64,000 nucleotides of DNA from Variovorax sp. PBL-E5. Lineage in GTDB: Bacteria; Pseudomonadota; Gammaproteobacteria; Burkholderiales; Burkholderiaceae_C. Where the stretch lies: positions 620,001 through 684,000 of the forward strand of contig NZ_LR594672.1 of assembly GCF_901827185.1 (NCBI RefSeq), in the 5' to 3' direction. Under the pieces are notes generated by a model, which worked only from the letters and a program-made list of their open reading frames with translations, ran no database searches and was not told the DNA's origin. This document shows, in pieces, positions 3,114 through 24,456 of this stretch (position 1 is the stretch's first letter; each line of letters begins with the position of its first letter). The position numbers and the translations under genes were made by a program.

Positions 3114-3299
3114 TGTGGAAAAGCGGACAGACGATGGCGGCCTAGTGGTTTTAGGAGTTTGGCCGGCTACGCATTACAGCCGAATTCTGGAGTGACGAGA
3201 AGCCCCGCTCCGAGGGGCCAGCGCCCTGAAGCCACGTGCTCTGAACGACCGCGGGGCGAGCTCGAAGCGGGGAGGGCACCGGCTAGTGGTGGCTAGACC

Positions 3300-3319
3300 G
3301 AGAAGAACTACTTCTTCTC
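3300..3319 (+). promoter_or_regulatory. inverted repeat upstream of 3336 gene
   Basis: GAGAAGAA-CTAC-TTCTTCTC, a perfect 8-bp inverted repeat ending 16 bases before the ATG at 3336. The ribosome site AAGGAA follows directly. It could be an operator or a 5' mRNA hairpin. Confidence 0.4.
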
Positions 3320-3335
3320 AGTCGATAAGGAACCC

Positions 3336-3824
3336 ATGCCAACACACGCATCCCTCTCGAAGTACCAACAAGGCCAGAACCTCTGGTTTCACCCCGAAAC
3401 GGGCGTCGAGGTGCGCGCTGCCCTCGAAGCAGCGTTCAAGACGCGATATGCCGTCCGACTCTGGTTCGGCGACACCAAGACAGGCCGCGCCTGGCCGGAG
3501 CAAGACCACGTCATCGGGCAAATCGGACGGTCGGCGGGCAAGCGCAAGCTGCCGCTCCTCGCGTCAGCCGATGGCGAGGCCGAGCTGCAAATCGAAGACC
3601 AGTGCATCGTTCGAATCGACCTGGCCGCACCTGGAACGCTGCCGGGTAGCTCCGTTTACCGGCATCAGGCGTTCCACACTGGCGACTGGGCCGTATCGGC
3701 CTCAGATAAGCGTGGTTACGCCGAGGACGTGCTGAACGATGGAAAGGTGCTGGCGCGCTTCAAGCAGAATGGCGCCGGCGCCCGCTACATCGACTTTCTG
3801 ACCGGAGCATCGAATGCCTTCTGA
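3336..3824 (+). CDS. hypothetical protein
   Basis: 162 residues, MPTHASLSKYQQGQNLWFHP, with a TAAGGAA ribosome site. The sequence is mixed alpha/beta, with LWFGDTKTGRAWPEQDHVIGQIG early and YRHQAFHTGDWAVSASDKRG late. Its stop overlaps the start of the next gene by 11 bases, so the two are probably translated together. I recognise no family; GC and codon use match the neighbours. Confidence 0.75.
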   Translation: MPTHASLSKYQQGQNLWFHPETGVEVRAALEAAFKTRYAVRLWFGDTKTGRAWPEQDHVIGQIGRSAGKRKLPLLASADGEAELQIEDQCIVRIDLAAPGTLPGSSVYRHQAFHTGDWAVSASDKRGYAEDVLNDGKVLARFKQNGAGARYIDFLTGASNAF

Positions 3825-4092
3825 GCAACCACGGCCCGTCCGCCCGGAGCTCGCTCCCGCATTCCAGCCTGGCCAGGTCATCGAGTTCTGCGACGACTTC
3901 TTTGTCGTCAGGGACAACCTCGGCGCCAGCGGGACGGTTACCCACCTTGACGGGCAGCACTGCTCCAGCAACTGGCGCTGGTCCTTTGAAGACGAGGTCT
4001 GCCGTCTCGCGACGGAGGCAGAGCTCAAGGCTCTCGACACCGGCCTGCCTCTCGTTTCCGCCGCGCTGGCGAGACTCAAGGCAGCCTCCTAA
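3814..4092 (+). CDS. hypothetical protein
   Basis: 92 residues starting MPSEQPRPVRPELAPAFQPG inside the end of the upstream gene. It contains VIEFCDDFFVVRDNLGASGTV and SNWRWSFEDEVCRLAT, a short beta-rich domain with two cysteines. Second gene of a two-gene unit closed by a strong terminator. Function unknown. Confidence 0.75.
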   Translation: MPSEQPRPVRPELAPAFQPGQVIEFCDDFFVVRDNLGASGTVTHLDGQHCSSNWRWSFEDEVCRLATEAELKALDTGLPLVSAALARLKAAS

Positions 4093-4107
4093 CCAACGTC
4101 ATTCCAA

Positions 4108-4136
4108 GCCGGGCCCTATTTGGGCCCGGCTTTGCC
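4108..4136 (+). terminator. rho-independent terminator
   Basis: GCCGGGCCC-TATTT-GGGCCCGGC, a 9-bp perfect stem followed by TTTGCCTT, just after the stop at 4092. Confidence 0.8.
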
Positions 4137-4270
4137 TTGTGCTCGGTGAGCGTTCCCGCAGCGCCGCAGGCACCGGTAGTGAGCATCGGGCGCTTGGCCC
4201 CGCCACCAACCCCGAAAGAAGGGCCGCTGTCCGGGAGGGAGCAGCGGCCGCTGAATTTTCGCGCCCTGGG

Positions 4271-4504
4271 TCAGCAGGCTTGGGTCCAAGCCAGCTCGCC
4301 ACCCTGGTAGATGCGAAGAATGAGCTTGTCGTGGGTGCTTAACCATCGGCGCTTCACCTCAGGCACGAGGAGGAGCAGAAAAGATGAGAACTCATTAGGG
4401 TCGAGCCCTTGGGCAAGGTCTGGATGAAGGAGCTGAAGTTCAACTCGTGCAACATCGACCTCCTGGTCGCCTTTGACGGCAACAAAGACAATTGAAGTAG
4501 TCAT
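4271..4504 (-). CDS. hypothetical protein
   Basis: 77 residues from the ATG at 4504 (MTTSIVFVAVKGDQEVDVAR). An in-frame extension to 4573 looks non-coding and overlaps the CTATAG box near 4530. The protein has an amphipathic helix (PNEFSSFLLLLVPEVKRRWL) and a C-terminal strand ending in WTQAC. Antiparallel to its neighbours. No family recognised. Confidence 0.65.
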   Translation of the reverse strand: MTTSIVFVAVKGDQEVDVARVELQLLHPDLAQGLDPNEFSSFLLLLVPEVKRRWLSTHDKLILRIYQGGELAWTQAC

Positions 4505-8831: not shown

Positions 8832-8973
8832 TTGAGTACCTTTCAAAGGTTGGTTAGAGGGTCACGACGGAAGCAGTACTCGCCGTCAAAGAGTGGAGGG
8901 AGTGAACGCCGCACCCACGAAAATCCTCTAACGCCGGGCACCCGCACGCAGAACGAATTTTTCTAAAAAAGGC

Positions 8974-9002
8974 TTGCGCGTATAAACTCCGCGACCTATA
9001 AT
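8974..9002 (+). promoter_or_regulatory. sigma-70-type promoter of the tRNA operon
   Basis: TTGCGC (8974-8979), 17 bases, TATAAT (8997-9002). This is the closest match to a consensus promoter that I found in the window and it faces the leader ORF and tRNA genes. Start of transcription should be near 9009. Confidence 0.75.
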
Positions 9003-9036
9003 GCTCACACATTCAAACCTGACTGACCGCAACATC

Positions 9037-9144
9037 ATGAACGCCCTCAACATCACCGCCGCTTCCATCCGGGTCTCCCGGACGGTCGACTGCGCTCGTG
9101 ATGAGCGTCGTGATGAACGTGCGGAGCGCGACGAGCGCTCCTAA
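9037..9144 (+). CDS. 35-residue Asp/Glu/Arg leader peptide of the tRNA operon
   Basis: ATG at 9037, TAA at 9142-9144. The last 18 residues are DCARDERRDERAERDERS: four Asp, four Glu and six Arg. The tRNA genes that follow carry anticodons for exactly those three amino acids. No good Shine-Dalgarno sequence is seen, which weakens the case, but the ORF lies 28 bases after the expected transcript start of a strong promoter. Several mutually exclusive hairpins overlap its 3' end. The natural model is a sensor of charged tRNA-Asp/Glu/Arg, as in amino-acid attenuation. Translation is not proven and similarity of the composition could be coincidence. Confidence 0.5.
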   Translation: MNALNITAASIRVSRTVDCARDERRDERAERDERS

Positions 9145-9180
9145 GCAGTCACTGGTCGTCTCCGCCAGTGAGCTGGCGGA
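9092..9180 (+). promoter_or_regulatory. competing hairpins, possible attenuator
   Basis: Four stems can be drawn: CGCTC-GTGAT-GAGCG (9093-9107); GCGCTCGT (9092-9099) with ACGAGCGC (9131-9138); GGAGCGC-GACGA-GCGCTCC (9123-9141); and TCCGCCAG-TGAG-CTGGCGGA (9161-9180). The first and second exclude each other, as do the second and third. The last stem is not followed by a T-run, so it is not a classical terminator. Confidence 0.4.
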
Positions 9181-9272
9181 CCCTCAGACGGCCAAAGTCT
9201 CACGACACCTCCCTCTGTATTCCCGCTAGCTGCGTCCAACAGGACTCGGAGAGCTTGGTTTTGCCTTGCCGC

Positions 9273-9354
9273 GGGAAGCTTCCCCTGGCAATGCGGACCA
9301 TCGGTTTTAGACACCGAGGCGGAGCTATATCCGTCGAAATCTTAAAGGTTTCCT
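9273..9354 (+). tRNA. tRNA-Leu(TAG)-like relic
   Basis: A perfect anticodon arm TCGGT-TTTAGAC-ACCGA reads TAG (Leu). GGGAAGC and GTTTCCT can pair as an acceptor stem with two G-T pairs, and a CGGA/TCCG variable arm exists. There is no canonical T-loop, and the element abuts tRNA-Glu with no spacer. It may be a degenerate tRNA or chance. Confidence 0.25.
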
Positions 9355-9428
9355 ACTCCGTTCGACTTCTGGTTGAGGTCACCAGGCTTTCACCCTGGGC
9401 AGGCCGGGTTCAAATCCCGCACGGAGTA
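9355..9428 (+). tRNA. tRNA-Glu(TTC)
   Basis: 74-nt cloverleaf. Acceptor ACTCCGT/ACGGAGT, anticodon arm CCAGG-CTTTCAC-CCTGG (anticodon TTC), T-arm with loop TTCAAAT and one C-C mismatch at its base, discriminator A, CCA encoded at 9429-9431. The A1-T72 end is unusual for bacterial tRNA-Glu, which normally begins with G. Confidence 0.85.
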
Positions 9429-9474
9429 CCAAATTCGCCGCGTGTCGAGTGACGCCGACGCGCCTTAAACAACT

Positions 9475-9547
9475 GCGCCATTGGCTCAATGGATAGAGCA
9501 CCAGGTTGCGAACCTGGAGACTCCTGGTTCGATTCCAGGATGGCGCG
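9475..9547 (+). tRNA. tRNA-Arg(GCG)
   Basis: Acceptor GCGCCAT/ATGGCGC, anticodon arm CCAGG-TTGCGAA-CCTGG (anticodon GCG, codon CGC), T-loop TTCGATT, discriminator G and encoded CCA to 9550. GCG is uncommon in bacteria, which usually use an A34 (inosine) Arg tRNA for CGC/CGU. Confidence 0.9.
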
Positions 9548-9559
9548 CCATGCTTGCAA

Positions 9560-9633
9560 GGACTAGTAGCTCAGCTGAGAAGAGCAACCGCCTGTCCAGC
9601 GGTAGGTCGTGGGTTCGAGCCCCATCTAGTCCG
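9560..9633 (+). tRNA. tRNA-Asp(GTC), copy 1
   Basis: Acceptor GGACTAG/CTAGTCC, anticodon arm ACCGC-CTGTCCA-GCGGT, T-loop TTCGAGC, discriminator G, CCA encoded at 9634-9636. Confidence 0.9.
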
Positions 9634-9646
9634 CCAATCATTCGAT

Positions 9647-9719
9647 GCACCCGTAGCTCAGGGGATAGAGCGCCGGCGTCCGAAGCCGGAGGTCGTCTGT
9701 TCAATTCAGACCGGATGCG
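9647..9719 (+). tRNA. tRNA-Arg(CCG)
   Basis: Acceptor GCACCCG/CGGATGC with one C-A mismatch, anticodon arm CCGGC-GTCCGAA-GCCGG (anticodon CCG, codon CGG), T-arm GTCTG-TTCAATT-CAGAC, encoded CCA to 9722. Confidence 0.87.
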
Positions 9720-9771
9720 CCAGCGGCGCGAAAGCGCTGCCAAGGGCAGTTTTGTCAGATATGAAAGTTTT

Positions 9772-9849
9772 GCAGAGCCGTAGCGCAACTGGTTAGCGCA
9801 CCGGCCTGTCACGTCGGAGGTTGCGGGTTCGAGTCCCGTCAGCTCTGCA
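9772..9849 (+). tRNA. tRNA-Asp(GTC), copy 2
   Basis: Acceptor GCAGAGC/GCTCTGC, anticodon arm CCGGC-CTGTCAC-GTCGG (one G-T pair), T-arm GCGGG-TTCGAGT-CCCGT. Anticodon GTC again, but the body differs from copy 1. No CCA is encoded, unlike the other tRNAs here. Confidence 0.85.
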
Positions 9850-9859
9850 AAGCTTTTAC

Positions 9860-9918
9860 GTCACGTTCGTCTAGTGCTCAGGACGTCACCTTCTCAAGGT
9901 GATTACACGGGTTGGAAT
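9860..9918 (+). pseudogene. tRNA-Glu(CTC), 5' part, split by the IS3-family element
   Basis: GTCACGT acceptor strand, D-arm, and anticodon arm TCACC-TTCTCAA-GGTGA (anticodon CTC), then ACGGG-TTGGAAT where the element begins. Joined to 11296-11312 it forms an intact cloverleaf, so the gene was whole before the insertion. Confidence 0.85.
9915..9918 (+). repeat. left target-site duplication GAAT
   Basis: GAAT here and at 11296-11299 flank the element; 4 bp fits the IS3 family. Confidence 0.75.
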
Positions 9919-9948
9919 TGATCTTGCCCCCGTATTTCAGGACACGGG

Positions 9949-10881
9949 CTATTCGCAATGTAGCGCCTGCTCGATCTGAGCAAGACGCTGTTGGGCAGCG
10001 CGATGCTGCCTGAACTCCCTGGGTGATCTCATCTTCAATGCCGAGTGCGGGTGTACCTCATTGAAGTGCTCGAAGGCCGCGGCCATCTGCGCCATCACCG
10101 TTCTCGCGTCGGCGAGGTCCATGCGGCTGACGTAGTCGCGCTTAAATGTGTTGACGAAGCTCTCGGCCATGCCGTTGCTCTGCGGGCTACACACGGGCGT
10201 GTTCACCGGCTTCAGGCCCAGCTGTCGAGCAATCTTCCGGGTCTCGGCCGCGATGTACGCGCCGCCGTTGTCCGAGAGGAACTCCAGCGTGTGAGTCCCG
10301 GGGATGCCATCGATGTTGCCGAAGCGCTTTTCCACGGCTTCGATGAGCATCTCACGCACCGGCTCGCCCGGCAGCCCCTTCCCCTCCCAAGCCCGGAAGG
10401 CAAGGATCTCGCGGTCGCAGCAGTCCTTGGTGAAGGTCGCGGTGACTGTCTGTCCCGAGTCGCACTTGATCTCGAAGCCGTCCGAGCACCAGCGCACATT
10501 GCTGTGCGCGACCGCCACTTTCCCCTCGTGAGGCCGGCTGGACTGGCGCCGTCGGGGTGCCTTCGGCAACAGCAACGCGTGGCCCGCCATCACGCGGTAG
10601 ACGCGCTTGGCGTTCACGCGCGCAGCGCCGGTGTTGGCTCGATACCGGTTCACCAGTGCGCAGGCGCGTCGGTAGCCATAGGTTGGCAACTCGGTGATCT
10701 GCGCCTTGATCTCGTCGAGCAACGTGGCGTCGCTGAGCTTCGCCGGTCTCTGTGTGCGCGCGTCGATCCAGTTCTCTGGGCGGGTCCGCAGGCGATGAAC
10801 ATTCGAGCGCGCCAACCCCAAGGCCTGGCAGACAGCCTTCACTGGCCGTCCCCGTTCAGCAAGGGCGAGCGCGCAATCCAC
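9949..10881 (-). CDS. IS2-group transposase OrfB (catalytic part)
   Basis: 310 residues with an rve integrase core. The DDE residues are visible: [23 protein letters not shown] and [19 protein letters not shown] with the expected D-x35-E spacing of IS3. N-terminal HTH-like region ([18 protein letters not shown]). It overlaps OrfA out of frame; an A7G slippery run on the minus strand (10881-10888) should give the OrfAB fusion by -1 frameshifting, as in other IS3 elements. This reading begins in the overlap, so the separate start shown is only the open frame. Confidence 0.92.
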
Positions 10882-11231
10882 TTTTTTTCGGCGGCGTACT
10901 CCACGGCTTCCTTGAGGATTTCGTTCTCCAGCGTCTTCTTGCCGAGCACGCGCTGCAGCTTGGCAATCTCGGCACGAGCGGCGGCGAGCTCAGAAGCCGG
11001 CACCACGGCCTCGCCAGCGGAGACCGCCGTCAACGCTCCCTGTCGCTCCAGCTTGCGCCACTGGAACAACAAGCTGGCGGCAACGCCTTCCTGGCGTGCA
11101 ACCAGCGACACGCTCATGCCCGGTTCGTAGCTTTGGCGAACCAGTGCGGCCTTCTCTCCAAGGGACCAGCGCCTACGGCGCTGGTCCCTCATGATCACTT
11201 CAACGGTATCCGTATTCCTAGTCGTACTCAC
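10839..11231 (-). CDS. IS2-group transposase OrfA (HTH part)
   Basis: 130 residues from GTG at 11231, which has AGGAG upstream (an ATG at 11279 would lie in the IS end). [20 protein letters not shown] and [20 protein letters not shown] make an HTH_Tnp_1 domain, followed by a leucine-zipper-like helix ([17 protein letters not shown]). The stop lies 43 bases into the OrfB frame. Confidence 0.9.
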
Positions 11232-11295
11232 AGTCCTACTCCTATCTTGAAAGATAAGCGATAGACCGTGTCCTGTCATTCAAGGGGCCAGCTCA

Positions 11296-11312
11296 GAATC
11301 CCGTACGTGACT
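11296..11312 (+). pseudogene. tRNA-Glu(CTC), 3' part
   Basis: GAATCCCGT completes the T-arm and ACGTGAC the acceptor stem, with discriminator T and CCA encoded at 11313-11315. The T-loop of the reconstructed tRNA is TTGGAAT instead of TTCGAAT. Confidence 0.85.
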
Positions 11313-11342
11313 CCAAATCTCTCGGGGCTAGCGCCTCGAAAT

Positions 11343-11423
11343 CCGTCCGTAGCCGGTCTGGTCTTCGAAGCCAGTACGCCGTAGTTGGAGCTGCAATCGG
11401 GAGTTCGAATCTCTCCGGACGGG
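11343..11423 (+). tRNA. non-canonical tRNA-like element, candidate tRNA-Arg(TCG)
   Basis: Perfect acceptor CCGTCCG/CGGACGG, T-arm GGGAG-TTCGAAT-CTCTC, discriminator G and encoded CCA. The best anticodon arm is CTGGT-CTTCGAA-GCCAG, giving TCG (Arg, CGA). Only eight bases remain for the D-arm, while 24 bases lie between anticodon and T-arm. I could not fold a normal D-arm. It is either a rearranged tRNA, an armless type or a processed form with an insertion. Confidence 0.45.
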
Positions 11424-11471: not shown

Positions 11472-12599
11472 ATGTCTCACCGCCGAGCACCCTTTCTGAT
11501 AACGGACTTCAAGACTATCGCGTGGCTGGCGGGGTACCTTGAGGGGGAGGGTTCGTTCCTGCGAAACTCCAAGCGCGTTGCCATAAGCCTTCAAACAACA
11601 GACTTTGACGTTGCGCAGAGGGTAGCTGGGCTTATGAACGCGAAGGTGCATCCGGTTTCTCAAGCGGCGGCGCACCACAAGCAGGCCTACGCTGTCCATG
11701 TCACCGGCAAGCGAGCGGTTTACTACATGCAACTCGTTCAACCCTACAGGGGGGTCCGTCGTCGCATCCGTATCGACGAGTGCCTCGACGCAGTCGCTCA
11801 AAACAGCCAGCATAGGAAGCGACTTGGCCAGGCGTCGGCCCGCATCTCGGATTCGGCTCTATTGGCGGCTTGGTTAGGCCGAGGAGAGGGCGTATCGCTT
11901 CGGGCGTTCTCAAACTCCGTTGGCATTGGCCGTAGCTCCGTGTCCCGTCGGTTGAACATCCTGGGTTGCAAGGTCAGTCGAGCCGCGCAGCATGACTCAT
12001 GCTCAGATGCGTCAAGTTCACCACCAACTCAAGCTTGCTACCCGGCCCTTGACGAGCCGTCGGAGGTCTCGCTGGAATGGACAGCTGGGCTACTTGAAGG
12101 GGAGGGGAGCTTCGATTTCATCCAGGGGCGCACACGCGTCTCACTGAAAATGACCGACGAGGACGTCGTTGCCCGGTTCTCCCGCCTCGTCTCAACGACC
12201 GTTTGCTACCAAGCGCCCACGCGCGTTGGGTGGAAGGCAAGCTACATCGCAGCAGTACACGGCAATGCGGCAAAGGACTTGATGAGTCGCGTTGCACCAC
12301 TGATGGGCAAGCGAAGACTAGCCAGAATCTCCCACTGCCTGACTGCGGCTCATGAGCATCGCGTGGCGCTGACGCTAGCGGCAAACCGCGTGTTCGAAGC
12401 CCGCTATCCCCAGGCGGCCATTTGCGCCAGATGGGCCAGCCGTCTGCCTGGCGAATCCCTCGAGTCTGTTGCAAAGGAGTTTGGAATCAGCCTCGAGTCG
12501 CTCCGGCGTCGGCTAACCGAATGGGGCGTCTATGAAGGCACGCCATCGAAGAGCATTCGCGCGTCAGTTCGCGTGGCCAGCCCTGCCTCTTTGCTCTAA
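11472..12599 (+). CDS. LAGLIDADG homing endonuclease (two motifs)
   Basis: 375 residues. Two LAGLIDADG-type motifs: IAWLAGYLEGEGSF near residue 17 and LEWTAGLLEGEGSF near 200, each starting a pseudo-symmetric half with an acidic residue for metal binding. That layout cuts as a monomer at a long asymmetric site. Between and after the halves are HTH-like segments (SLRAFSNSVGIGRSSVSRRL and SVAKEFGISLESLRRRL), probably extra DNA-binding modules. No intron or intein surrounds it, so it is free-standing. It sits between the tRNA array and gltX and probably targets a homologous locus on tRNA-bearing plasmids; that target is inference. Confidence 0.88.
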   Translation: MSHRRAPFLITDFKTIAWLAGYLEGEGSFLRNSKRVAISLQTTDFDVAQRVAGLMNAKVHPVSQAAAHHKQAYAVHVTGKRAVYYMQLVQPYRGVRRRIRIDECLDAVAQNSQHRKRLGQASARISDSALLAAWLGRGEGVSLRAFSNSVGIGRSSVSRRLNILGCKVSRAAQHDSCSDASSSPPTQACYPALDEPSEVSLEWTAGLLEGEGSFDFIQGRTRVSLKMTDEDVVARFSRLVSTTVCYQAPTRVGWKASYIAAVHGNAAKDLMSRVAPLMGKRRLARISHCLTAAHEHRVALTLAANRVFEARYPQAAICARWASRLPGESLESVAKEFGISLESLRRRLTEWGVYEGTPSKSIRASVRVASPASLL

Positions 12600-12653: not shown

Positions 12654-13355
12654 ATGGTCTACAACACACGCATCGCCCCAAGCCCATCTGGATTCTTCCA
12701 TCTCGGAACCGCACGCACGGCTTACTTCAACTGGCTGGCCGCGCGCGCCTCTGGCGGCAAGTTCCTCCTGCGCATTGACGACACGAACACTGCCAAGTCG
12801 CAGGACCAGTTCGTTGACGTCATCTACCAGGCTATGGACTACCTCAAGCTCGGCCACGACCTCACCTTCAAGCAGAGCGACCGGCAGGCCCGCTACCAAA
12901 CGGTCGCCGGCGACCTGGTCGCAAAGGGCAGGGCGGTCCACCGCGATGGCGCGGTCTTTCTGCAGCACGACCTGGTCCATCAATCGTTCGACGACCGAGC
13001 GCTCGGCACAGTCAAGGTCACGAAGCTCGACCTCGACTTCATCAAGAACATGGTGCTGCTGAAATCGGACGGCATGCCGACGTACCACTTCGCGAGCGTC
13101 GTCGACGACATCGACTTTGACATCAACCTGGTCATCCGCGGCAACGACCACGTGAGCAACACCATGAAGCAGGTCGCCATCTACGATGCGCTAGACGCCG
13201 CCGTGCCCCAGTACGCGCATATCGGGTTGCTTTGCGACCTCAAGACCGGCAAGAAGCTCTCGAAGTCGGACGGCGCCAAGTCGCTGCTCGACTTCCAGGC
13301 AGACGGCATCGGCGCAGACGCCATGTGCAACTTTTTGCTCCGCCTGGGCTGGGGC
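12654..13355 (+). pseudogene. gltX: glutamyl-tRNA synthetase, truncated by the IS21-family element
   Basis: The first 234 residues of a class I GluRS: MVYNTRIAPSPSGFFHLGTA carries the HIGH-type motif (HLGT), LRIDDTNTAKSQDQF follows, and GKKLSKSDGAKS is the KMSKS loop. The usual length is about 470, so the anticodon-binding half is lost. After RLGWGC the reading continues 30 codons into the insertion sequence to 13445. The catalytic Rossmann core is present but such a half enzyme would not recognise tRNA-Glu normally. Location after Glu/Asp/Arg tRNA genes suggests it once charged the plasmid tRNA-Glu. Confidence 0.88.
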
Positions 13356-13445
13356 TGTTGGCGCCGATGGAATATTGACCAGCTGTGCCGGTTGAATTTT
13401 GACCAGGGGCTAAGGCTGCCTCCGCAGGAGGTCAGCTGTGGATAA

Positions 13446-15913: not shown

Positions 15914-15920
15914 CCTATAC
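15914..15920 (+). promoter_or_regulatory. CCTATAC box, likely -10 element
   Basis: CCTATAC directly abuts the right end of the IS21 element, followed by GAAGCAGGACCAC; the ATG is 29 bases downstream. The insertion has therefore removed any native -35 region. Confidence 0.5.
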
Positions 15921-15949
15921 GAAGCAGGACCACTTCGTACTAGGAAACC

Positions 15950-16249
15950 ATGGAACTCATCGGAACAATCAAGGCCTACGGTCAAGACCTCGAGGTCAGG
16001 GAGACACGCTATCGGGACGGAGCGCTCGCGTTTATCGTGCAATCCCGGCAAGGCGAGGCGTACGGGACTCTGAGCGTCAACGTGCCCGGCCTCGAGCTGG
16101 CCGAAGGCGAATTCCTCGCCAAGACCTGGTCGGAAAACGAACCGCTTCGCGCGCCAGCGCTGGCCTTGACAGCATTCACCGACACCGGCAAGCGCGTGCC
16201 AGTCGGGTTCTGCGACGCCGAGGTGTGGGTGCGGCAGAGGGCCCATTGA
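15950..16249 (+). CDS. hypothetical protein, DUF4313-like
   Basis: 99 residues, MELIGTIKAYGQDLEVRETR. The pattern YRDGALAFIV, YGTLSVNVPGLELAEGEFLAKTWSENE and TGKRVPVGFCDAEV resembles DUF4313 proteins of plasmids and phages (a small beta-rich family of unknown function), recalled from memory and not searched. Its stop TGA overlaps the next ATG, so it is coupled to the peptidyl-tRNA hydrolase. Confidence 0.65.
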   Translation: MELIGTIKAYGQDLEVRETRYRDGALAFIVQSRQGEAYGTLSVNVPGLELAEGEFLAKTWSENEPLRAPALALTAFTDTGKRVPVGFCDAEVWVRQRAH

Positions 16250-16698
16250 TGGCAGCCTTCGACCCTGACATCCAAGCCATGCTCGACGAGCGGGCACGCA
16301 CGATGGCAGCTTTCACGGCGGACCATCGGCCACTGGCGCTCTACGCGCTTTATCGTGCGGACCTCCAGATGCCGACCGGCAAGCTGGCTGCACAGTGCGG
16401 TCACGCGTTCGACCTGGCCCATGACCGCGCCAAGCTCGAGCGACCGGAAATCACCGCTCAGTACCGAGGCAGCGGCAACGGAACCAAGCTCGTGATGTAC
16501 GGCAAGAACGTCGGCCAGCTGATACGCGCATACCGGGAAGCGAAAGCCGCGGGCCTGCCCTGCGAGCTCATCATCGACCGGGGCCATATTCTCCTGCCGC
16601 ACTTCACCGGCAAGCCCATCATCACTGCCGTTGGTATCGGCCCAGCCTACAAGGACGAGGTCGCCAACATCACCAAGCGATTCACGCTGGCGCGCTAG
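16249..16698 (+). CDS. peptidyl-tRNA hydrolase, Pth2 family
   Basis: 149 residues from ATG at 16249, overlapping the upstream TGA. The Pth2 signature is clear: ALYRADLQMPTGKLAAQCGH, then GNGTKLVMYGKN, LPCELIIDRGHI and TAVGIGPAYKDEVANITKRF. Pth2 frees tRNA from peptidyl-tRNA dropped by stalled ribosomes. It is the archaeal/eukaryotic type and unrelated in fold to bacterial Pth, so it is unexpected in a bacterium with its own Pth. Position beside a tRNA operon and gltX suggests a plasmid translation-support set. The N-terminal 30 residues are an extension without match. Confidence 0.85.
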   Translation: MAAFDPDIQAMLDERARTMAAFTADHRPLALYALYRADLQMPTGKLAAQCGHAFDLAHDRAKLERPEITAQYRGSGNGTKLVMYGKNVGQLIRAYREAKAAGLPCELIIDRGHILLPHFTGKPIITAVGIGPAYKDEVANITKRFTLAR

Positions 16699-16718
16699 CC
16701 CCGTGCGTCTCATTCCAA

Positions 16719-16751
16719 CGCCCCCACGTCATCGACGCTGGGGGCGCTTTT
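16719..16751 (+). terminator. rho-independent terminator
   Basis: CGCCCCCA and TGGGGGCG pair, with further ACGTC/GACG pairing inside, followed by CTTTT. Lies between convergent genes. Confidence 0.75.
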
Positions 16752-16764
16752 CCTGGTCAGGCGC

Positions 16765-17622
16765 TCAACGCTCGCGCGGCGAGCTCCAGTTCAGCTTTTG
16801 CTGAAGCGTCTTGAACAGGTTGTAGTCCTTCAGGTGCAGCATCTTCACGGTGGTCGCACCCTGCGAGACGTGGACCCGCGTTCCGTCCGTGAGCGGCCCG
16901 CCGTATGGCTGCCCGTCGCAGACCACCCTCGACTCCACCGTCCCTCGCACAACGACTTCGACCTTCACCGAGCTCGGAAGCGAGATGGGCCTTGCGGTCA
17001 ACGAATGTGGGTTCAGTGGCACCAGGGCGATGGCTGCCAAGGAGGGGTGCAGGATGGGCCCGTTGGCCGACAGGGCGTAGGCGGTCGAGCCGGTGGGCGT
17101 CGTGATGATGAGCCCGTCCGCACGCAGGGAGAAGACGGGCTGCTCGTCCACGAAGACGTCGAACTGAGCGAGCCGGCCGAAGCCGCCGTTTGTGAACACG
17201 ACGTCGTTGAAGGCAAGCCCCCTCGACTCTTCGCCGTCCAGCCCTGCCTCCAGAAGAATGCGGTCCTCGACCGTGTACTCGCCGGCCTGGATAGCATCCA
17301 GCATCCGTTCAATGTCCTTGGCAGCAACGTCGGTGAGGAAGCCGAGGGTTCCAAGGTTGACGCCAAGAATGGGTTTGCCCCAGCCGAAGAGGTTGCGAGC
17401 CACCCCGAGCAGGGTGCCGTCCCCGCCGATGGCAATGGCAATGTCCGCCTCCTGCCTGGCCGACTCGATGAGCTCAGAACTCCAGTTCTTGCCGTCCCAT
17501 CCGCCCTTGTCGGGCCCCACCAGAACCCGTAGGCCCTTGAGCTGCGCCCAGGAGACGATTTCGTTGAGAACACCCCATGCGTGGGGGTTGTTGGGCTTGC
17601 TGAAGAGGGCCAGGGTCGTCAT
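16765..17622 (-). CDS. nadK: NAD kinase
   Basis: 285 residues, family length. Motif GGDGTLLGVARN (residues about 66-77), LGVNLGTLGFLTDV, FTNGGFGRLAQFDV and the TTPTGSTAYALSANGP nucleotide loop identify an ATP-NAD kinase making NADP from NAD in the cytosol. The second motif reads FNDVVF where NE is usual, a conservative change. Convergent with pth2 and first in a minus-strand set of nucleotide-related genes. Confidence 0.93.
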   Translation of the reverse strand: MTTLALFSKPNNPHAWGVLNEIVSWAQLKGLRVLVGPDKGGWDGKNWSSELIESARQEADIAIAIGGDGTLLGVARNLFGWGKPILGVNLGTLGFLTDVAAKDIERMLDAIQAGEYTVEDRILLEAGLDGEESRGLAFNDVVFTNGGFGRLAQFDVFVDEQPVFSLRADGLIITTPTGSTAYALSANGPILHPSLAAIALVPLNPHSLTARPISLPSSVKVEVVVRGTVESRVVCDGQPYGGPLTDGTRVHVSQGATTVKMLHLKDYNLFKTLQQKLNWSSPRER

Positions 17623-17670
17623 TGTTGTTTTTGCGGTGCAGGAATCGGAAAACTTGTTCTTTGGGGAAAC

Positions 17671-18159
17671 CTAGAAGGCCAGCTCTGCGCCGGCCCCGTT
17701 GAAGGGGTAAGGGTTCTTCGTCTTCTCGACCGCCGCCTCCAGCAGCTCGGCCAGGTCGGCGTGTACGGGGATGTGGTAGCGCTGTGCCAGGCGGTCAAGG
17801 TAGCGCATCTTCTGCGCGTCTCCAGGAAAGCCCAGCAGCAACTTTGACGACGCCGCCAGCAAGCCGAATTCGGTGTTAGTCGTGAAGCCAGGCAGGGTTG
17901 CGACGTCACGGGGCACCCAGAACACGACCACTGTGGCCTGATTTAGGGCCTGCCATTCCCACTGCACCTGCGGGTCATACGTGTTGGGAGGAAGCCCGCC
18001 TCCAACCGTCTCGGGGACGAAGACCTTCCCGTCGAAGTCCAGACCCCGAAGAATCTCCAGCGCTTGCGGGCGCCAGGACTTCGTGGCGGCATCGCGCGGC
18101 GTGGGGCCCGCGAGGAAGATGGATTTTTCGAGGGGCTGCTGTGCAAAGATGATGTGCAT
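17671..18159 (-). CDS. nucleoside 2-deoxyribosyltransferase-like protein
   Basis: 162 residues. SIFLAGPTPRDAATKSWRPQ, VFVPETVGGG, QVQWEWQALNQATVVVFWVP and LPGFTTNTEFGLL match the nucleoside 2-deoxyribosyltransferase-like fold (same family as the PF15891 type). Such proteins cleave or exchange N-glycosidic bonds of nucleotides. Together with NAD kinase and nicotinamidase it suggests a nucleotide recycling role, inferred only from position. Confidence 0.8.
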   Translation of the reverse strand: MHIIFAQQPLEKSIFLAGPTPRDAATKSWRPQALEILRGLDFDGKVFVPETVGGGLPPNTYDPQVQWEWQALNQATVVVFWVPRDVATLPGFTTNTEFGLLAASSKLLLGFPGDAQKMRYLDRLAQRYHIPVHADLAELLEAAVEKTKNPYPFNGAGAELAF

Positions 18160-18216
18160 TTGGAGAAAGAAGTAGGATTTCGAGGGCTTTAGCCCGTGAA
18201 GCGGACGGGGTGCTGC

Positions 18217-18840
18217 TCACCCCGGGAACTGACGAAAGCGGCCCGCGCCATGCCACTCATCGCCATCCACCGGATAGGCATGACCAATACGCGCAGACCA
18301 GACGTCCACCATGTGGCAGAACGCCGCGAGCTCGTTCATCACACGACCGTTGCTCGAGTAGTCCTGCATTTCGCCTTCCACGTACGTCAGCGCGTTGAGC
18401 TGCGCAGGTGTCAGTACCAACGCATACTCCTGCAGCTTGGCCGCGCGAAAAGCCTTGAACGCGGCTTTGGTATCCAGGCCCTGGCGGTTTACAACCTGGC
18501 CGTCGGAGTGCACCAATATGCGCCAAGGCTTCTCGAGGTCGTGCAGGTACAGGATGAGCAATGCGTCTGAAATCGAGAACGGCAGCGGGCGACCCAACGC
18601 TTTGGTCAGCGCATACAGGTGGCGACCGTAGTTCATCGAATCGACCACATGGTCCAGGTAGCCCCCATCCCAGGCCTGATGGTTGTGCGTCGACCCGCGC
18701 GTGGTCTCGAACAGCTTGCGGTTGTCCGCGAGGATGTGCTTGCAGGCTGTGTGGGCAGGTTCGTCGATAAGGTCCAGCAGGTCCTGGATTTGCAGGTAGT
18801 CCAGGATTTGACTAAGGCAGCGAACGTTGGTGGTAGGCAT
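18217..18840 (-). CDS. HD-domain phosphohydrolase-like protein
   Basis: 207 residues from the ATG at 18840; an in-frame extension to 19074 is low-complexity and antisense to the next gene, so it was rejected. HNHQAWDGGYLDHVVDSM and LLILYLHDLEKPWR give the H...HD metal-binding pattern of HD hydrolases, and EMQDYSSNGRVMNELAAFCH follows. The substrate is not predictable; family members act on (deoxy)nucleotides or cyclic nucleotides. Same strand as the NAD-related genes. Confidence 0.75.
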   Translation of the reverse strand: MPTTNVRCLSQILDYLQIQDLLDLIDEPAHTACKHILADNRKLFETTRGSTHNHQAWDGGYLDHVVDSMNYGRHLYALTKALGRPLPFSISDALLILYLHDLEKPWRILVHSDGQVVNRQGLDTKAAFKAFRAAKLQEYALVLTPAQLNALTYVEGEMQDYSSNGRVMNELAAFCHMVDVWSARIGHAYPVDGDEWHGAGRFRQFPG

Positions 18841-18880
18841 GAAGCAAAGGCTAGATTGAGCGAAGCCTGGCCGGGCGTTC

Positions 18881-19606
18881 TCAGAAGACGAGAGCTTGGC
18901 TGGGACCGCCAGTGCCAAGGGATTGGGACTGCGCGGAGATGGAGCGGCTGACAAAGTCCGCGAGCTTGGCCAGGCGTTGTGGCGTTGCATCCGCCAAGTC
19001 GACGTACTGGTCGATGCCCGCTTCGACCTGGAAGGCCTGGAGCTCGCGGGCGTATTGGGCGGCGTTGATGCCAATCAGGACGGTGCGCAGCGATTCGATG
19101 TGCTCGCCCTTCAACGCACCCACAATCTCCTTCTGGATGTCCGCTGGCCGCATGCGACTATCGTTGTCGACGCCGTCGGTGCCGATGAAGACGATGCCGT
19201 TGACCAGGTAGTCCTGCTGGGCCAGCGTCTTGGCGTAGGCGTTGGTTGCACTTACCGCGGCAAAGGTGGCGTCGGCCAAGGCGGTCAGCCCCTCGCAGGT
19301 TGGGGCCACGTACGAGGCCACATCCACCTGATTCAGAGGCAGGAACCCGTGCACCTCGTCGACGCTGCGATTGAATTCGACGACGCGCAGCAGGAGGAAC
19401 TCGGCACGAGGGCTCTTTCTGCAAGCACCGACCACCGTGACTTTGAGCTTGTTCAACTCGTCCGCGAACGAGGAAACCGAGCCGGTCTTGTCCATCACGA
19501 CGGTCACAAGGGTGTACTCCGTCGAGCCGAGCGTCTCTGGACGGACGGCGGAGAACGCAAAGCCGGAGACGCTGCCGAGCGTCATGGTGTCATCAACGAG
19601 TTTCAT
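18881..19606 (-). CDS. VWA-domain protein
   Basis: 241 residues from ATG at 19606 with AGAAAGGA upstream. A von Willebrand A fold: YTLVTVVMDKTGSVSSFADE holds a MIDAS-like DxTGS, and GIVFIGTDGVDND the second metal motif. It stays close to the TerY/tellurite-type and cytosolic VWA proteins that bind a metal-dependent partner. The final 20 residues (QSQSLGTGGPSQALVF) are flexible. The partner is unknown, but two more VWA proteins lie at 44923 and 63032. Confidence 0.78.
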   Translation of the reverse strand: MKLVDDTMTLGSVSGFAFSAVRPETLGSTEYTLVTVVMDKTGSVSSFADELNKLKVTVVGACRKSPRAEFLLLRVVEFNRSVDEVHGFLPLNQVDVASYVAPTCEGLTALADATFAAVSATNAYAKTLAQQDYLVNGIVFIGTDGVDNDSRMRPADIQKEIVGALKGEHIESLRTVLIGINAAQYARELQAFQVEAGIDQYVDLADATPQRLAKLADFVSRSISAQSQSLGTGGPSQALVF

Positions 19607-19668
19607 GGGAATCCTTTCTGGTCTAGAGACGGGTTGTCTCAACCCGCCCGGTCCAAGCGGTTTAGAGG

Positions 19669-20541
19669 TTACTTGCGCCCGTTGGCCACGAGTTCGCCCA
19701 GCACGTCGGTCGACGTCGCCGTACGCAGGCCGCGAGCGGTCATGTCCGCCAGGAACGACTGGTACTGGGCTTCGAACCCACCTACCGGCGAGATGCAGTC
19801 GGTCAGGAGCACCAGCTTGCTGAGACTGTCGGCGCCGAAGTTGTCGGCAATGTGCTCGGTCGTGGCCTTGACGCAGTGGCTGCCCGCCTCGCCGGCAATG
19901 AGCACTATGTCGGCCTGGGCCAGGATGTCGATGAGGCCGCGATTGAGCTGCGTGGTGGGGTCGTCGGCCGCCGGAACCTCGGCCATGACCGCGCTGTAGT
20001 GCTCGGTCCAGGGGTTCGAGCCCTTGGTCACCTTGTTTACGATGCCGAGGAACGCCTCCTCCCATGCGACGTAGGCGGCGCGCACATCGGCGTGCACGTT
20101 GTGCCCCCAGGTTCCGATTTCGCAGTGTGGCGTCCAAACCATGTGGACGTAGCGGCCACCCGCCTCGAGCGCGTCCAGGTAGGCCAGCACGCGGTCCGTG
20201 GCCTTCGGGTGGCGCGGCAGATAGGCGCCAGCTCGCACCTGGGCGGCGGTGATTTGGGTGAACGGGTCAACGGGCGAACCGTCACCCTTCATCCACATGG
20301 CCGGGCGCTCGATGCCCACACGGTGATGGGAGTCCAGCGTGACGGAGATATCCGAGAGGCCGCGCAGACCGCGATTCAGGAGCTCGGTCAGTCTCAGCAT
20401 GTCAGCGTGCGCGCCGGGGACGGCGAGTTGCGGCCGGAGGACCTCGCCAGGCTTCAGTGGGTCCGCGGGCAGGTAGGCGGACGGCAGGTCGCAGAAGTCG
20501 TTTTGCGGGTCGATGACGAGAAGGTGGATGTTGTGCTTCAT
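19669..20541 (-). CDS. pncA: nicotinamidase-like cysteine hydrolase (isochorismatase family)
   Basis: 290 residues, longer than the usual ~210 of PncA. HLLVIDPQNDFCD supplies the catalytic Asp, the DSHHR region and WTPHCEIGT the metal/active-site pocket, and IAGEAGSHCVKATTEHIAD the nucleophile cysteine. It fits nicotinamide deamidation to nicotinate in NAD salvage, and control by an NrtR-type repressor fits too. A related amidase cannot be excluded. Starts with GGAGCTCC region upstream and reads away from nrtR. Confidence 0.82.
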   Translation of the reverse strand: MKHNIHLLVIDPQNDFCDLPSAYLPADPLKPGEVLRPQLAVPGAHADMLRLTELLNRGLRGLSDISVTLDSHHRVGIERPAMWMKGDGSPVDPFTQITAAQVRAGAYLPRHPKATDRVLAYLDALEAGGRYVHMVWTPHCEIGTWGHNVHADVRAAYVAWEEAFLGIVNKVTKGSNPWTEHYSAVMAEVPAADDPTTQLNRGLIDILAQADIVLIAGEAGSHCVKATTEHIADNFGADSLSKLVLLTDCISPVGGFEAQYQSFLADMTARGLRTATSTDVLGELVANGRK

Positions 20542-20572
20542 GCGGAGCTCCTTTGCCGTTGTGTTGTGCTCA

Positions 20573-20579
20573 GTATAGC
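20573..20579 (-). promoter_or_regulatory. -10 element of the pncA-like gene
   Basis: Minus-strand GCTATAC(T), 32 bases before the ATG at 20541. Operator 1 lies immediately upstream. Confidence 0.5.
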
Positions 20580-20582
20580 ATC

Positions 20583-20605
20583 GTTAGTTTCTCCGTGCAA
20601 CTAAC
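20583..20605. promoter_or_regulatory. NrtR-like operator 1
   Basis: GTTAGTT-TCTCCGTGC-AACTAAC, a 7-bp inverted repeat just upstream of the -10 of the minus-strand pncA-like gene. Half-site is the same as in operator 2. Confidence 0.7.
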
Positions 20606-20677
20606 AGCGGAATCGAGGGCGCCCAGCGCAAAAAAAATGAGTGCGGAACAGGCAAGGGGAGGGGCCTTGTCGTGGCC

Positions 20678-20707
20678 TTGCCCAAAAAGTGTCGTTAGTT
20701 CTATAAT
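20678..20707 (+). promoter_or_regulatory. nrtR promoter
   Basis: TTGCCC (20678-20683), 18 bases, TATAAT (20702-20707). Its -10 lies inside operator 2, so repressor binding would block it. Confidence 0.6.
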
Positions 20708-20716
20708 GATACTAAC
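20694..20716. promoter_or_regulatory. NrtR-like operator 2
   Basis: GTTAGT-TCTATAATGAT-ACTAAC, inverted repeat with the same half-site and 23-bp length as operator 1, overlapping the nrtR -10. Confidence 0.72.
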
Positions 20717-20765
20717 GGCCTTCCCGCAGGCTTATCCCACAAAGCTCCCTCTAAAGAGGAATCCC

Positions 20766-21440
20766 ATGTTTCAAACTGTCATCTGCACGGTCGACGTCGT
20801 GCTACTGACCCTGAAGGAGCACAAGCTCCACGTCGCGCTCTTCAAGCGGGACAAAGAGCCCTTCGCCGGCAGCTACGCCCTGCCCGGGGGCTATATCCAT
20901 GCCGACGAAGACAACACAGCGTTTGATGCGGCGCTGCGCGTTCTCAAGGCCAAGACCGGGGTCACGAGCCCCTACCTCGAGCAGTTGGCGACATTCTCGG
21001 GCGCGGAGCGCGACCCTCGCGGATGGTCCGTCTCCATCGTCTACTACGCGCTGATGCCGCTGGAGGTTTTGGAAGCCGCCGACCAGGCGGGAATGCAGGT
21101 GTTGCCCGTCAGCGCCGTCAAAGACCTGCCCTTTGACCACAATGACATTGTTGCGGCGGCCGTCAAGCGCGTGCGCAGCAAGAGCATCTACTCATCGCTG
21201 CCGGCACATCTGTGCGGCCCGCAGTTCACGCTGCCTGAGTTGCAGTCGGTTTACGAAGCGGTGCTGGGCAAGACACTGAACAAGGTGAGCTTTCGCCGAA
21301 AGGTGGACGAGCTCGACCTGGTGGAAGAGATTCCTGGCGCCAAGACCGAGGTCATCTCGCAGCGGCCCGCGCAAATCTACCGCCTGAAGCGCAAGTTCCG
21401 CCACAAGCTTTCGACCGTCGAGCGGGCACTGCTGTCCTGA
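20766..21440 (+). CDS. nrtR: NrtR-type transcriptional regulator (Nudix plus winged helix)
   Basis: 224 residues from ATG at 20766 with AAGAGGA; the in-frame extension to 20553 passes through the operators and was rejected. N-terminal Nudix-like domain (VALFKRDKEPFAGSYALPGG, DAALRVLKAKTGV: a degenerate Nudix box lacking several catalytic glutamates, as in NrtR) senses ADP-ribose in known members. C-terminal winged helix (YEAVLGKTLNKVSFRRKV, AQIYRLKRKF) binds DNA. It should repress itself and the divergent pncA-like gene through the two operators. Confidence 0.88.
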   Translation: MFQTVICTVDVVLLTLKEHKLHVALFKRDKEPFAGSYALPGGYIHADEDNTAFDAALRVLKAKTGVTSPYLEQLATFSGAERDPRGWSVSIVYYALMPLEVLEAADQAGMQVLPVSAVKDLPFDHNDIVAAAVKRVRSKSIYSSLPAHLCGPQFTLPELQSVYEAVLGKTLNKVSFRRKVDELDLVEEIPGAKTEVISQRPAQIYRLKRKFRHKLSTVERALLS

Positions 21441-21452
21441 GGCGGCAACGCG

Positions 21453-21899
21453 ATGAAGACCACATCGTGCGGCGTGCTCATCCGGAACGCGGCCGGCCAA
21501 CTCCTGGTGGCCCATGCCACGGGCCAGCGCCACTGGGACATCCCCAAGGGCGGTGCCGAACCCGGTGAATCGCCCAGGGAGGCAGCGGTCCGGGAGGTCC
21601 TGGAGGAAACAGGGCTGGTGCTGGCGGCCGAAGCGCTTCGGGAAGTGGGCCTTTTCGCCTACAGGTCCGGCAAGGACCTCCATTTGTTCACAACGACGCT
21701 GGCGGAGGCCGATTGCGACCTGGGCCGGTGCCAGTGCACAAGCCATTTCCCTCACTTCCGGACCGGCGTCTTGACGCCTGAGGTCGACGAGTACAGGTGG
21801 GTGGACCTGCCGGAAGTACCGAAGTACTGCGCGCTTTCGATGACGGCGCTTCTCCGAACGTTGCCGGGCCTCGAGGCAATCGCCGGACCAAAACGCTGA
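21453..21899 (+). CDS. Nudix hydrolase
   Basis: 148 residues, 12 bases after nrtR. Complete Nudix box: GGAEPGESPREAAVREVLEE followed by TGL. An N-terminal CGVLIRNAAGQLLVAHATG strand pair and WDIPKGG precede it. Probably hydrolyses a nucleoside diphosphate derivative such as ADP-ribose or Ap4A; with nrtR, a macro protein and NAD kinase around it, ADP-ribose or NAD turnover is the best guess. Substrate not proven. Confidence 0.88.
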   Translation: MKTTSCGVLIRNAAGQLLVAHATGQRHWDIPKGGAEPGESPREAAVREVLEETGLVLAAEALREVGLFAYRSGKDLHLFTTTLAEADCDLGRCQCTSHFPHFRTGVLTPEVDEYRWVDLPEVPKYCALSMTALLRTLPGLEAIAGPKR

Positions 21900-21908
21900 A
21901 ACCCGGCC

Positions 21909-21915
21909 GCTACAC
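21909..21915 (+). promoter_or_regulatory. GCTACAC box, likely -10 element
   Basis: Only 6 bases from the ATG of recX, so a transcript starting about 7 bases downstream would be nearly leaderless. Confidence 0.4.
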
Positions 21916-21921
21916 AGGCTC

Positions 21922-22419
21922 ATGCCCAAGCACACTCGCGAACCACCGAAGCGCTCTGCAAAGTCCTACGCCGTCTGGCTCCTGAGCCGCCGGGAATACT
22001 CGGCCAGGGAGCTTCAGGACAAGCTCACGAACCGCGGGTACCCGGCCGAGGAGGCGACCTCTGCGGTGGGTGAAATGCAGCGTCACGGCTTCCAGGATGA
22101 CGGGCGGTTTGCCGCGGGTGCCGCGCGCACCTCCGCCCTCCGACTGGGCAACCGCAGCGTGACCGCGAAGCTTGCGGCCAAAGGCATCTCCAAAGAGCTC
22201 GCGGCTGAGCAGCTCGAGCAGCTCGAGCCCGAGGAGACACGCGCCCTACGCGTTGCGGAGCGTTTCGAGGGAAAGCCCCTCGACGAGGCCCTCAAGGCCA
22301 AGGCCTACCGGTACCTGGCATCGCGGGGATTTTCTGGTGGGGCGGTCAAGGCCGCCATGCGTCACCTCCACGCAGAGGCCCAGCGGCGCGCCGAAGAGGA
22401 GGATGGACGGCCTGTCTAA
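21922..22419 (+). CDS. recX: RecX-family regulator of RecA
   Basis: 165 residues. AVWLLSRREYSARELQDKLT and GYPAEEATSAVGEMQRHGFQDD are the first of the three RecX three-helix repeats; LAAKGISKELAAEQLEQLE and KAYRYLASRGFSGGAVKAAM are the others. RecX blocks or shortens RecA filaments. Possession by a plasmid could damp the SOS response, a role inferred from the family. Confidence 0.9.
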   Translation: MPKHTREPPKRSAKSYAVWLLSRREYSARELQDKLTNRGYPAEEATSAVGEMQRHGFQDDGRFAAGAARTSALRLGNRSVTAKLAAKGISKELAAEQLEQLEPEETRALRVAERFEGKPLDEALKAKAYRYLASRGFSGGAVKAAMRHLHAEAQRRAEEEDGRPV

Positions 22420-22439
22420 AGGGGTGAGGGGTCGAGTTG

Positions 22440-22446
22440 CCTATAC
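22440..22446 (+). promoter_or_regulatory. CCTATAC box, likely -10 element
   Basis: Followed by GGCTGCAGGACAACAC; the ATG of the macro gene is 32 bases downstream. Confidence 0.5.
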
Positions 22447-22477
22447 GGCTGCAGGACAACACACAAAGGAACCCTTC

Positions 22478-23011: not shown

Positions 23012-23030
23012 GAAATCCGTTCTCTACTTC

Positions 23031-23067
23031 AACCACCGCTCCTTTTCCAAAGGGCGGTGGTTTTCTT
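23031..23067 (+). terminator. rho-independent terminator
   Basis: AACCACCGC pairs with GCGGTGGTT, followed by TTCTT. Confidence 0.8.
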
Positions 23068-23224
23068 ATGGGGTTGGGCGTGATGTTCGTCGCGCATTGA
23101 CGGGATTTGGGACGCACCGAGGCGCGTTTCGGACACGAGGCGACAGCTATCATTGGCGCCAAACAGGCAAGAAGCAGATGATGAGATTCGACTTTCGCAG
23201 GGAGGGGCTTTTAGCCTGCTTCCC

Positions 23225-23785: not shown

Positions 23786-23855
23786 TTTAGGTCGAGGGCT
23801 TCCTAAAACGTATCGGTCGTGCTAAAATGCTTCTCCTACGCTAAAGAGAAGAGCC

Positions 23856-24401: not shown

Positions 24402-24418
24402 CAACAACTGACCCTACG

Positions 24419-24456
24419 AGCCCCGAAGCCGCAGCTGGCCTCGGGGCTTTTTCTTT
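24419..24456 (+). terminator. rho-independent terminator
   Basis: AGCCCCGA pairs with TCGGGGCT, followed by TTTTCTTT. Confidence 0.85.

Follow-up and report, generated by a model that had tools for sequence, protein, structure and literature searches.

The region analysed here, referred to as the window, is a 64,000-nucleotide stretch of Variovorax sp. PBL-E5 (contig NZ_LR594672.1, positions 620,001 to 684,000) that forms part of an 839-kb megaplasmid contig (C2); plasmid 2 of Variovorax sp. SRS16 (NZ_LR594667.1) matches the first 25 kb of the window at 100.0%. Near its left end lies a small array of transfer RNA (tRNA) genes, called with ARAGORN, preceded by a promoter, a short open reading frame (ORF) rich in Asp, Glu and Arg codons, and a structured leader RNA:

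8974..9002, plus strand: promoter, TTGCGC and TATAAT separated by 17 nt, read in the sequence; it resembles the one in front of the plasmid's main tRNA array
9009..9354, plus strand: structured 5' leader RNA, minimum free energy z of -6.2 against dinucleotide shuffles (folded as 9009-9360)
9037..9144, plus strand: leader ORF of 35 codons, MNALNITAASIRVSRTVDCARDERRDERAERDERS, with ATG at 9037 and TAA at 9144, ranking 1 of 88 for Asp, Glu and Arg
9088..9141, plus strand: Asp/Glu/Arg core of the leader, 14 of its final 18 residues
9160..9180, plus strand: hairpin behind the ORF, CTCCGCCAG-TGAG-CTGGCGGA, -14.1 kcal/mol, a candidate attenuator with no run of U residues
9355..9431, plus strand: tRNA-Glu(ttc)
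9475..9550, plus strand: tRNA-Arg(gcg)
9560..9636, plus strand: tRNA-Asp(gtc)
9647..9722, plus strand: tRNA-Arg(ccg)
9774..9848, plus strand: tRNA-Asp(gtc)

A sequence-only reading of this locus had proposed that the ORF is a leader that reads charged Asp, Glu and Arg tRNAs and adjusts synthesis of the plasmid's own tRNAs and GluRS, and that the array may serve as a reserve against host defences that cleave tRNAs. Its description of the ORF is borne out: the C-terminal part is DCARDERRDERAERDERS, and 14 Asp, Glu or Arg residues in 18 are reached by only one of the 950 window ORFs of at least 20 amino acids. The leader as a whole has eight Arg codons, all from the CGN box that the array's Arg tRNAs read. 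The promoter, which had been called strong, has a perfect consensus -10 box (TATAAT, 8997-9002) and resembles that of the main array (local score 43, against a maximum of 31 among 1,989 random segments), but its -35 box (TTGCGC, 8974-8979) fits the consensus at 3 of 6 positions, for which reason a standard promoter scan missed it. The tRNA list of that reading stands for the five genes above and fails for its last two entries, a Glu(CTC)-like tRNA that is interrupted by an IS3-family element and an Arg(TCG)-like element that scores below its cut-off.

On the megaplasmid contig there are 43 further tRNAs, of which 41 lie at 763 to 775 kb; the 43 serve all amino acids but Asp and Glu (one anticodon is unreadable), with Arg anticodons for AGA/AGG only. 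The main set lacks Asp, Glu and CGN-Arg, which the window array supplies; the two together comprise 48 tRNAs, cover all 20 amino acids, and have a leader each. We note that this full set, which includes the Arg anticodon GCG, lies in two groups (L131/L132, C2:756001-793000, and window 9355-9848). The main-array promoter (locus L131, -10 box at 6040) is followed by a 64-codon ORF, MKTQMTNLTTAMCSLHSVVAHAPRALPGGYQQPSLPSTPKCSVLAVASIGNSIQGWFNSNNRLT, that contains exactly 18 kinds of amino acid and is devoid of Asp and Glu; windows of 64 residues that are free of both and hold all 18 kinds number 6 among 6,113 taken from six-frame translations of the window and both array regions, a count that may include the main-array leader itself. 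This leader lies about 880 nt upstream of the first tRNA, and its Arg codons are AGG, which the main array reads, and CGG, which it does not. BLAST of the window leader against 72,556 plasmids matched SRS16 alone, over residues 1-19; the Asp/Glu/Arg part was probably masked, because the low-complexity filter was on. The sister plasmid of Variovorax WDL1 is 99.5% identical over window 15914-25000 and has 43 tRNA matches, a set like the main one: all of these sit at 46857-75001, and the plasmid is thus without the Asp/Glu/Arg array.

Downstream of the window array is a short GluRS gene, and relatives of its product were found in IMG/VR contigs of up to 608 kb; all 17 of the GluRS-encoding contigs searched (GluRS 38-71% identical) carry tRNAs, with 2 to 67 matches each. 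Leaders and arrays were compared by a score that takes the best local enrichment of a cluster's own amino acids in any ATG ORF within 420 nt upstream and sets it against the scores for the amino-acid sets of other clusters. From 110 clusters of at least two tRNAs, 92 were left after exclusion of the duplicate plasmid locus L130, repeated upstream sequences, clusters with less than 200 nt upstream and those with no readable anticodon, and 88 of these could be scored, having an ORF and at most nine kinds of amino acid. The leaders of the main array and of contig G497 fall outside this test, owing to the distance of about 880 nt to the first tRNA or to an array of more than nine kinds. Since the scoring keeps the longest ATG frame, the window leader was scored from an ATG at 9001, inside the -10 box, with the same core.

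In this set the mean z for a cluster's own amino acids is 1.11 (permutation standard deviation 0.10, maximum 0.39; none of 10,000 permutations as high), and 17 of the 88 clusters rank first for their own set where one is expected. Antisense (z 0.11; 1,459 of 10,000) and downstream controls (z 0.10; 1,555 of 10,000) are null. Four separate huge-phage records of 635 to 736 kb (32 clusters, all scored) give a z of 1.67 (permutation maximum 0.76; 0 of 10,000) with 11 clusters ranking first, and antisense and downstream controls of 0.27 (733 of 10,000) and 0.07 (3,239 of 10,000), respectively. These records presumably stem from the huge-phage study PMC7162821. For comparison, 18 clusters taken together (four from the host chromosome, eight from E. 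coli K-12 and six from phage XacN1) yield a z of 0.15 (2,226 of 10,000).

Many of the matches can be read by eye. VTTTVVIITTV precedes an I,T,T,T,V array, SSYSYCYSSHCSSS an S,S,S,S,Y,?,H array, DEREED a D,E,E,E array, LYPMPCYP a Y,P,L,P,M,C,P,C array and NRNNSNN an N,N array; in the huge-phage records QQQQQQQ lies upstream of Q,Q,Q,Q (LR756502.1) and LSLCLSLSLSL upstream of L,L,S,C,S (LR756504.1). In the closest long contig (113 kb, GluRS 71%) the leader is 48 residues long and free of S, C, Y and E; a strong terminator comes next, and the array has no Cys, Tyr or Glu tRNAs and a single Ser-like one with anticodon act. In the isolated phage XacN1 the ORF MNKPYYKRYYAKA stands directly before tRNA-Lys, Lys and Tyr (L188 30428-30469) and is followed by a strong hairpin without a run of U. 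The claim that the leader samples the codons of its own tRNAs is thus strongly supported, the pairing being seen at the second plasmid array and at many phage arrays. It recurs in other arrays and beats the controls, which speaks against a chance Asp/Glu/Arg-rich frame.

Another way to account for the window ORF is that its Asp/Glu/Arg run is incidental to a structured 5' leader RNA that does not code for protein, in which self-complementary CGCTCG/CGAGCG repeats happen to read as these three residues. The RNA does fold far beyond its shuffles (z -6.2), only one of 60 other window segments is more extreme by mononucleotide z, and the region contains a 12-nt tandem repeat of 2.1 copies; there is also no Shine-Dalgarno-like sequence to be seen before 9037, and the leader is unconserved elsewhere as far as searched. 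We nonetheless regard this explanation as improbable, as it leaves unexplained both the recurrence of the pairing in two cluster sets with null controls and the second leader of the plasmid. No Rfam family matches the window leader RNA above its cut-off, and our by-eye suggestions of a tmRNA, an RNase P RNA or an extra tRNA within 9009-9354 were unsupported by ARAGORN and Rfam.

The arrangement behind the leaders was examined in the 35 matched clusters, that is every cluster with an own z of at least 2 (21 from the 88-cluster set and 14 from the huge phages). An intrinsic terminator, a strong hairpin with a run of U, lies between the leader stop codon and the first tRNA in 27 of these, and its U-run starts 48-63 nt past the stop codon in 26 and 97 nt past it in one. 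Counted within 250 nt upstream, terminators are present in 26 of the 35 matched clusters, in 12 of 92 others, some of which carry leaders that match by eye (L144 4940, L139), and in 0 to 1 of 35 shuffled sequences; the comparison set has one in 18 clusters. For the analyses of tail pairing and codon boxes the leaders were picked by eye. When the last 16 codons of the ORF were compared with the 5' arm of the terminator, against shuffles, in 20 hand-picked leaders with a terminator, pairing was significant in eight (p <= 0.05; Fisher p 2.7e-9 for the 20), with 12 consecutive pairs between tail and arm in L129 5597 and L118. Across 40 hand-listed leaders the choice of Arg codon box tracks the array, with 29 CGN and no AGR codons before CGN-only arrays and 11 AGR and three CGN before AGR-only arrays, a result for which genome base composition may be a cause. 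The data as a whole support sensing of the right amino acids.

This organisation resembles a known one. Attenuation of amino-acid operons is classical, and the trp, his, leu, ilv, pheA and thr leaders of enteric bacteria are ribosome-mediated transcription attenuators; shared with them are a promoter, a short ORF rich in the relevant codons and, in most matched clusters though not at the window leader, an intrinsic terminator before the regulated genes, with alternative pairing between the ORF tail and the terminator arm in a subset only. The regulated genes differ, being tRNA genes rather than amino-acid biosynthesis genes or synthetases, as do the many leaders that sample several amino acids matched to the array behind them, and the setting in huge phages, phage-like contigs and a megaplasmid. 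T-boxes also let tRNA supply control a terminator, but they bind uncharged tRNA directly and need no leader ORF; neither a T-box nor any other non-tRNA Rfam family scores above cut-off here, and in a covariance scan of 8950-9960 only tRNA did so, with no T-box among the matches at E <= 10.

Our best reading is attenuation of the trp/his type with tRNA genes as its output, and we consider it probable that the leader ORF acts as sensor in an attenuator in which ribosomes control transcription of these genes. The ORF-array match, the terminator's near-constant distance from the leader in most of the matched relatives and, for a subset, the complementarity of the ORF tail can be read directly from the genomes, and from these we infer transcription, translation, stalling and the direction of control. 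An array would be transcribed from a promoter ahead of a short ORF dense in codons that its tRNAs read. With matching charged tRNAs plentiful, the ribosome would complete the ORF, the terminator hairpin would form and array output would stay low; with one of them short, the ribosome would stall inside the codon run, so that the distal ORF remains available for pairing with the terminator's 5' arm and transcription proceeds into the tRNA genes. The tail-arm geometry is such that a stalled ribosome would favour antitermination and a finishing ribosome termination. The pairing at the window is, judged on these comparisons, real and part of a wider set of putative leader-peptide attenuators that would regulate the very tRNAs the leader needs. 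For the huge phages and the related megaplasmid as a whole, we think it likely that control takes the form of dispersed codon-resolved feedback, with the tRNA complement split into sub-arrays behind matching leaders and each tRNA set made when translation of its codons falters, for example on cleavage of host tRNAs or on a shift to phage codon usage.

Several observations weigh against attenuation of this kind. At the window leader a run of U or canonical terminator was sought without success, and pairing of the ORF tail with the hairpin is not significant (p 0.10). Likewise, no U-run terminator was called behind the main-array leader, whose tail pairing is also not significant (p 0.86). A terminator behind the leader is missing from eight of the 35 matched clusters, and 12 of the 20 hand-picked leaders show no significant tail pairing; Ser boxes do not follow the array (11 own and 11 other in TCN-only arrays), and the Leu codon counts are too few. 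The lack of a visible Shine-Dalgarno-like sequence counts here as well. No convincing homologue of the window leader was found outside this plasmid in the relatives, plasmids and phages searched, 100 relatives giving weak matches only (best E 0.028, taken as chance) and 50,697 phages none. Several leaders of related phages are homologous and two are identical, so that not every cluster is an independent case and the permutation counts err on the generous side. Arrays without a leader of this sort, which the sequence-only reading had held to be contrary evidence, do occur: own z is below 0.5 in 55 of the 120 scored clusters, and in XacN1 two of six comparison clusters score above 2 and four below, so that a matched leader is common in this group and not universal. 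Low z values perhaps reflect in part multi-cluster transcripts or leaders beyond the scored range, as in L149, whose Q,Q,L,L,L,Q,Q array has a candidate leader, MFKNLLQQLQLTNEGQPRVQ, farther upstream; a convincing leader was not seen by eye for L150, L165 and most of L137.

The loci without a terminator bear on a further possibility, that the leaders are translated and act otherwise than by intrinsic termination, with stalling altering transcript stability, gating processing of the array or blocking Rho on otherwise untranslated RNA. The window and eight further matched clusters of the 35 lack a terminator call within 250 nt, and the main-array leader contains a boxA-like sequence, CGCTCTTTAAAAATTC, at about L131:6521, like that of ribosomal RNA leaders. 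We regard this account as unlikely, given the intrinsic terminator in 27 of 35 matched clusters, at 48-63 nt in 26 of them. A hairpin stands directly behind the ORF in both plasmid leaders, in the XacN1 K,K,Y leader and in the phage-contig leader L156, and a second leader class may work through Rho or processing. Under the attenuation that we favour, the termination step of the Variovorax plasmid, with its hairpin lacking a U-run, may be Rho-dependent, of another kind, or lost.

Beyond the fifth tRNA the window array is interrupted, and the GluRS gene follows:

9862..9936, plus strand: Glu(CTC)-like tRNA, 5' part, cut by an IS3-family element (by eye)
about 9937..11278, minus strand: IS3-family element inside the array, annotated transposase, ends judged by eye from the inverted ends
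11279..11314, plus strand: Glu(CTC)-like tRNA, 3' part (by eye)
11342..11423, plus strand: tRNA-like element with TCG at the anticodon position and a long variable region (tRNA-Sec model)
11472..12599, plus strand: LAGLIDADG-type endonuclease ORF (PF14528, E 7.6e-9)
12654..13370, plus strand: mini-GluRS (gltX), C-terminus replaced by IS21 sequence (alignment with relatives)

The IS3-family element cuts the sixth tRNA and an IS21 element cuts the mini-GluRS, and the locus is thus partly decayed; the leader and first five tRNAs look intact. ARAGORN does not call the interrupted Glu(CTC)-like tRNA, the 5' part of which gives a partial tRNA match (9869-9902, 17.4 bits) under the cut-off; the Arg(TCG)-like element reaches 26.7 bits with the tRNA-Sec model (E 0.0018), below its cut-off of 47. 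The mini-GluRS aligns with its relatives, which are about 289 amino acids long, over 234-239 amino acids. In five GluRS proteins scanned the best model is bacterial gltX, at 233 to 253 bits and below its cut-off of 290; as it scores ahead of the GluQRS models, an identity as GluQRS was not adopted.

The proposal that the leader senses amino-acid supply through charging, and adjusts GluRS besides the tRNAs, fares poorly. gltX does lie downstream on the same strand, and GluRS adjoins Glu tRNAs in a few relatives (L081, L109), but in the window it is truncated and sits 3.3 kb past the first tRNA, behind an insertion element and a separate ORF, and nothing ties it to the transcript. The two clusters that adjoin GluRS in the relatives match poorly, with z 1.21 for L081 (E,E,E) and z -1.10 for L109 (E,D,D,A,A); good matches occur at other places, in the 608-kb contig for instance at a long distance from GluRS. 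Many leaders combine several amino acids, and what these have in common is the array. We therefore consider this account highly improbable.

As far as found, the mechanism is of a known kind, and the tRNA output, the codon-matched mosaic and the setting are new. Huge phages are rich in tRNAs, and excerpts of the study describing them, whose abstract names a 735-kb genome, cover tRNA content and not its control (PMC7162821); jumbo phage XacN1 is reported, in an excerpt, to have 56 tRNA genes for all 20 amino acids (PMC5852040). The likeness to both, within those excerpts, lies in large tRNA sets and synthetases carried on a phage. The terms 'attenuat' and 'leader peptide' have no occurrences in the main texts of PMC7162821 and PMC13037316. 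Leader-controlled tRNA arrays were not found among the matches listed from the full-text literature searched, a scope that leaves most subscription papers outside, nor did that literature yield an account of phage tRNA-array regulation. Why phages carry tRNAs is an old open question, and phage tRNAs evade tRNA-targeting host defences, both according to parts of PMC10264068; the latter offers a possible reason for making tRNAs on demand, although it concerns the role of the tRNAs and, in those parts, not the control of their transcription. If the attenuation proposed here is correct, classical attenuation would control tRNA supply itself, each leader would be a written record of the tRNAs that the element expects to run short, and codon compensation and rescue from tRNA-cleaving defences would become directly testable against each other. 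The leaders may also help to find odd or hidden tRNAs.

Some further features of these loci were noted. In the window, the tRNA-Asp at 9560-9636 has C at position 37 of its anticodon loop (CTGTCCA) and differs there from the second tRNA-Asp (CTGTCAC); apart from the IS3-family insertion, the T loop of the Glu(CTC)-like tRNA seems on inspection to hold an additional hairpin of about 40 nt, and the TCG element at 11342-11423 seems to be missing a normal D arm. Genes annotated as NAD kinase, NAD synthase, pncB, NADAR and cysteine hydrolase are near the array (16765-20541 and L026), as are macro-domain and AlkB proteins. Short GluRS-like proteins are plentiful in metagenomes (1,032 at E <= 0.001) and mostly about 290 amino acids long among the best 120 of these, a length that leaves no room for the usual anticodon-binding domain. 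Stop-codon anticodons (tta, cta) are found on tRNAs of L123, L137 and L147, in L123 close upstream of GluRS, near which there is also a PTH2-like ORF by eye. Upstream of the array in the closest long contig (L135, about 3240-4400, minus strand) there are, by eye, compact RNA-like segments that are self-complementary, each preceded by a promoter-like sequence, and L145 has a predicted tmRNA (3385-3799) upstream of a tRNA array, the tag of which (AKNKRIAEGGAILRNIFSKSEAPCAIAA) is unusually long. Finally, the leader ATG is 3 to 5 nt after a TAAATA motif in L144 (both arrays), L151, L152, L156 and L188 30428, which suggests a promoter of phage type and a 5' untranslated region that is very short or missing.

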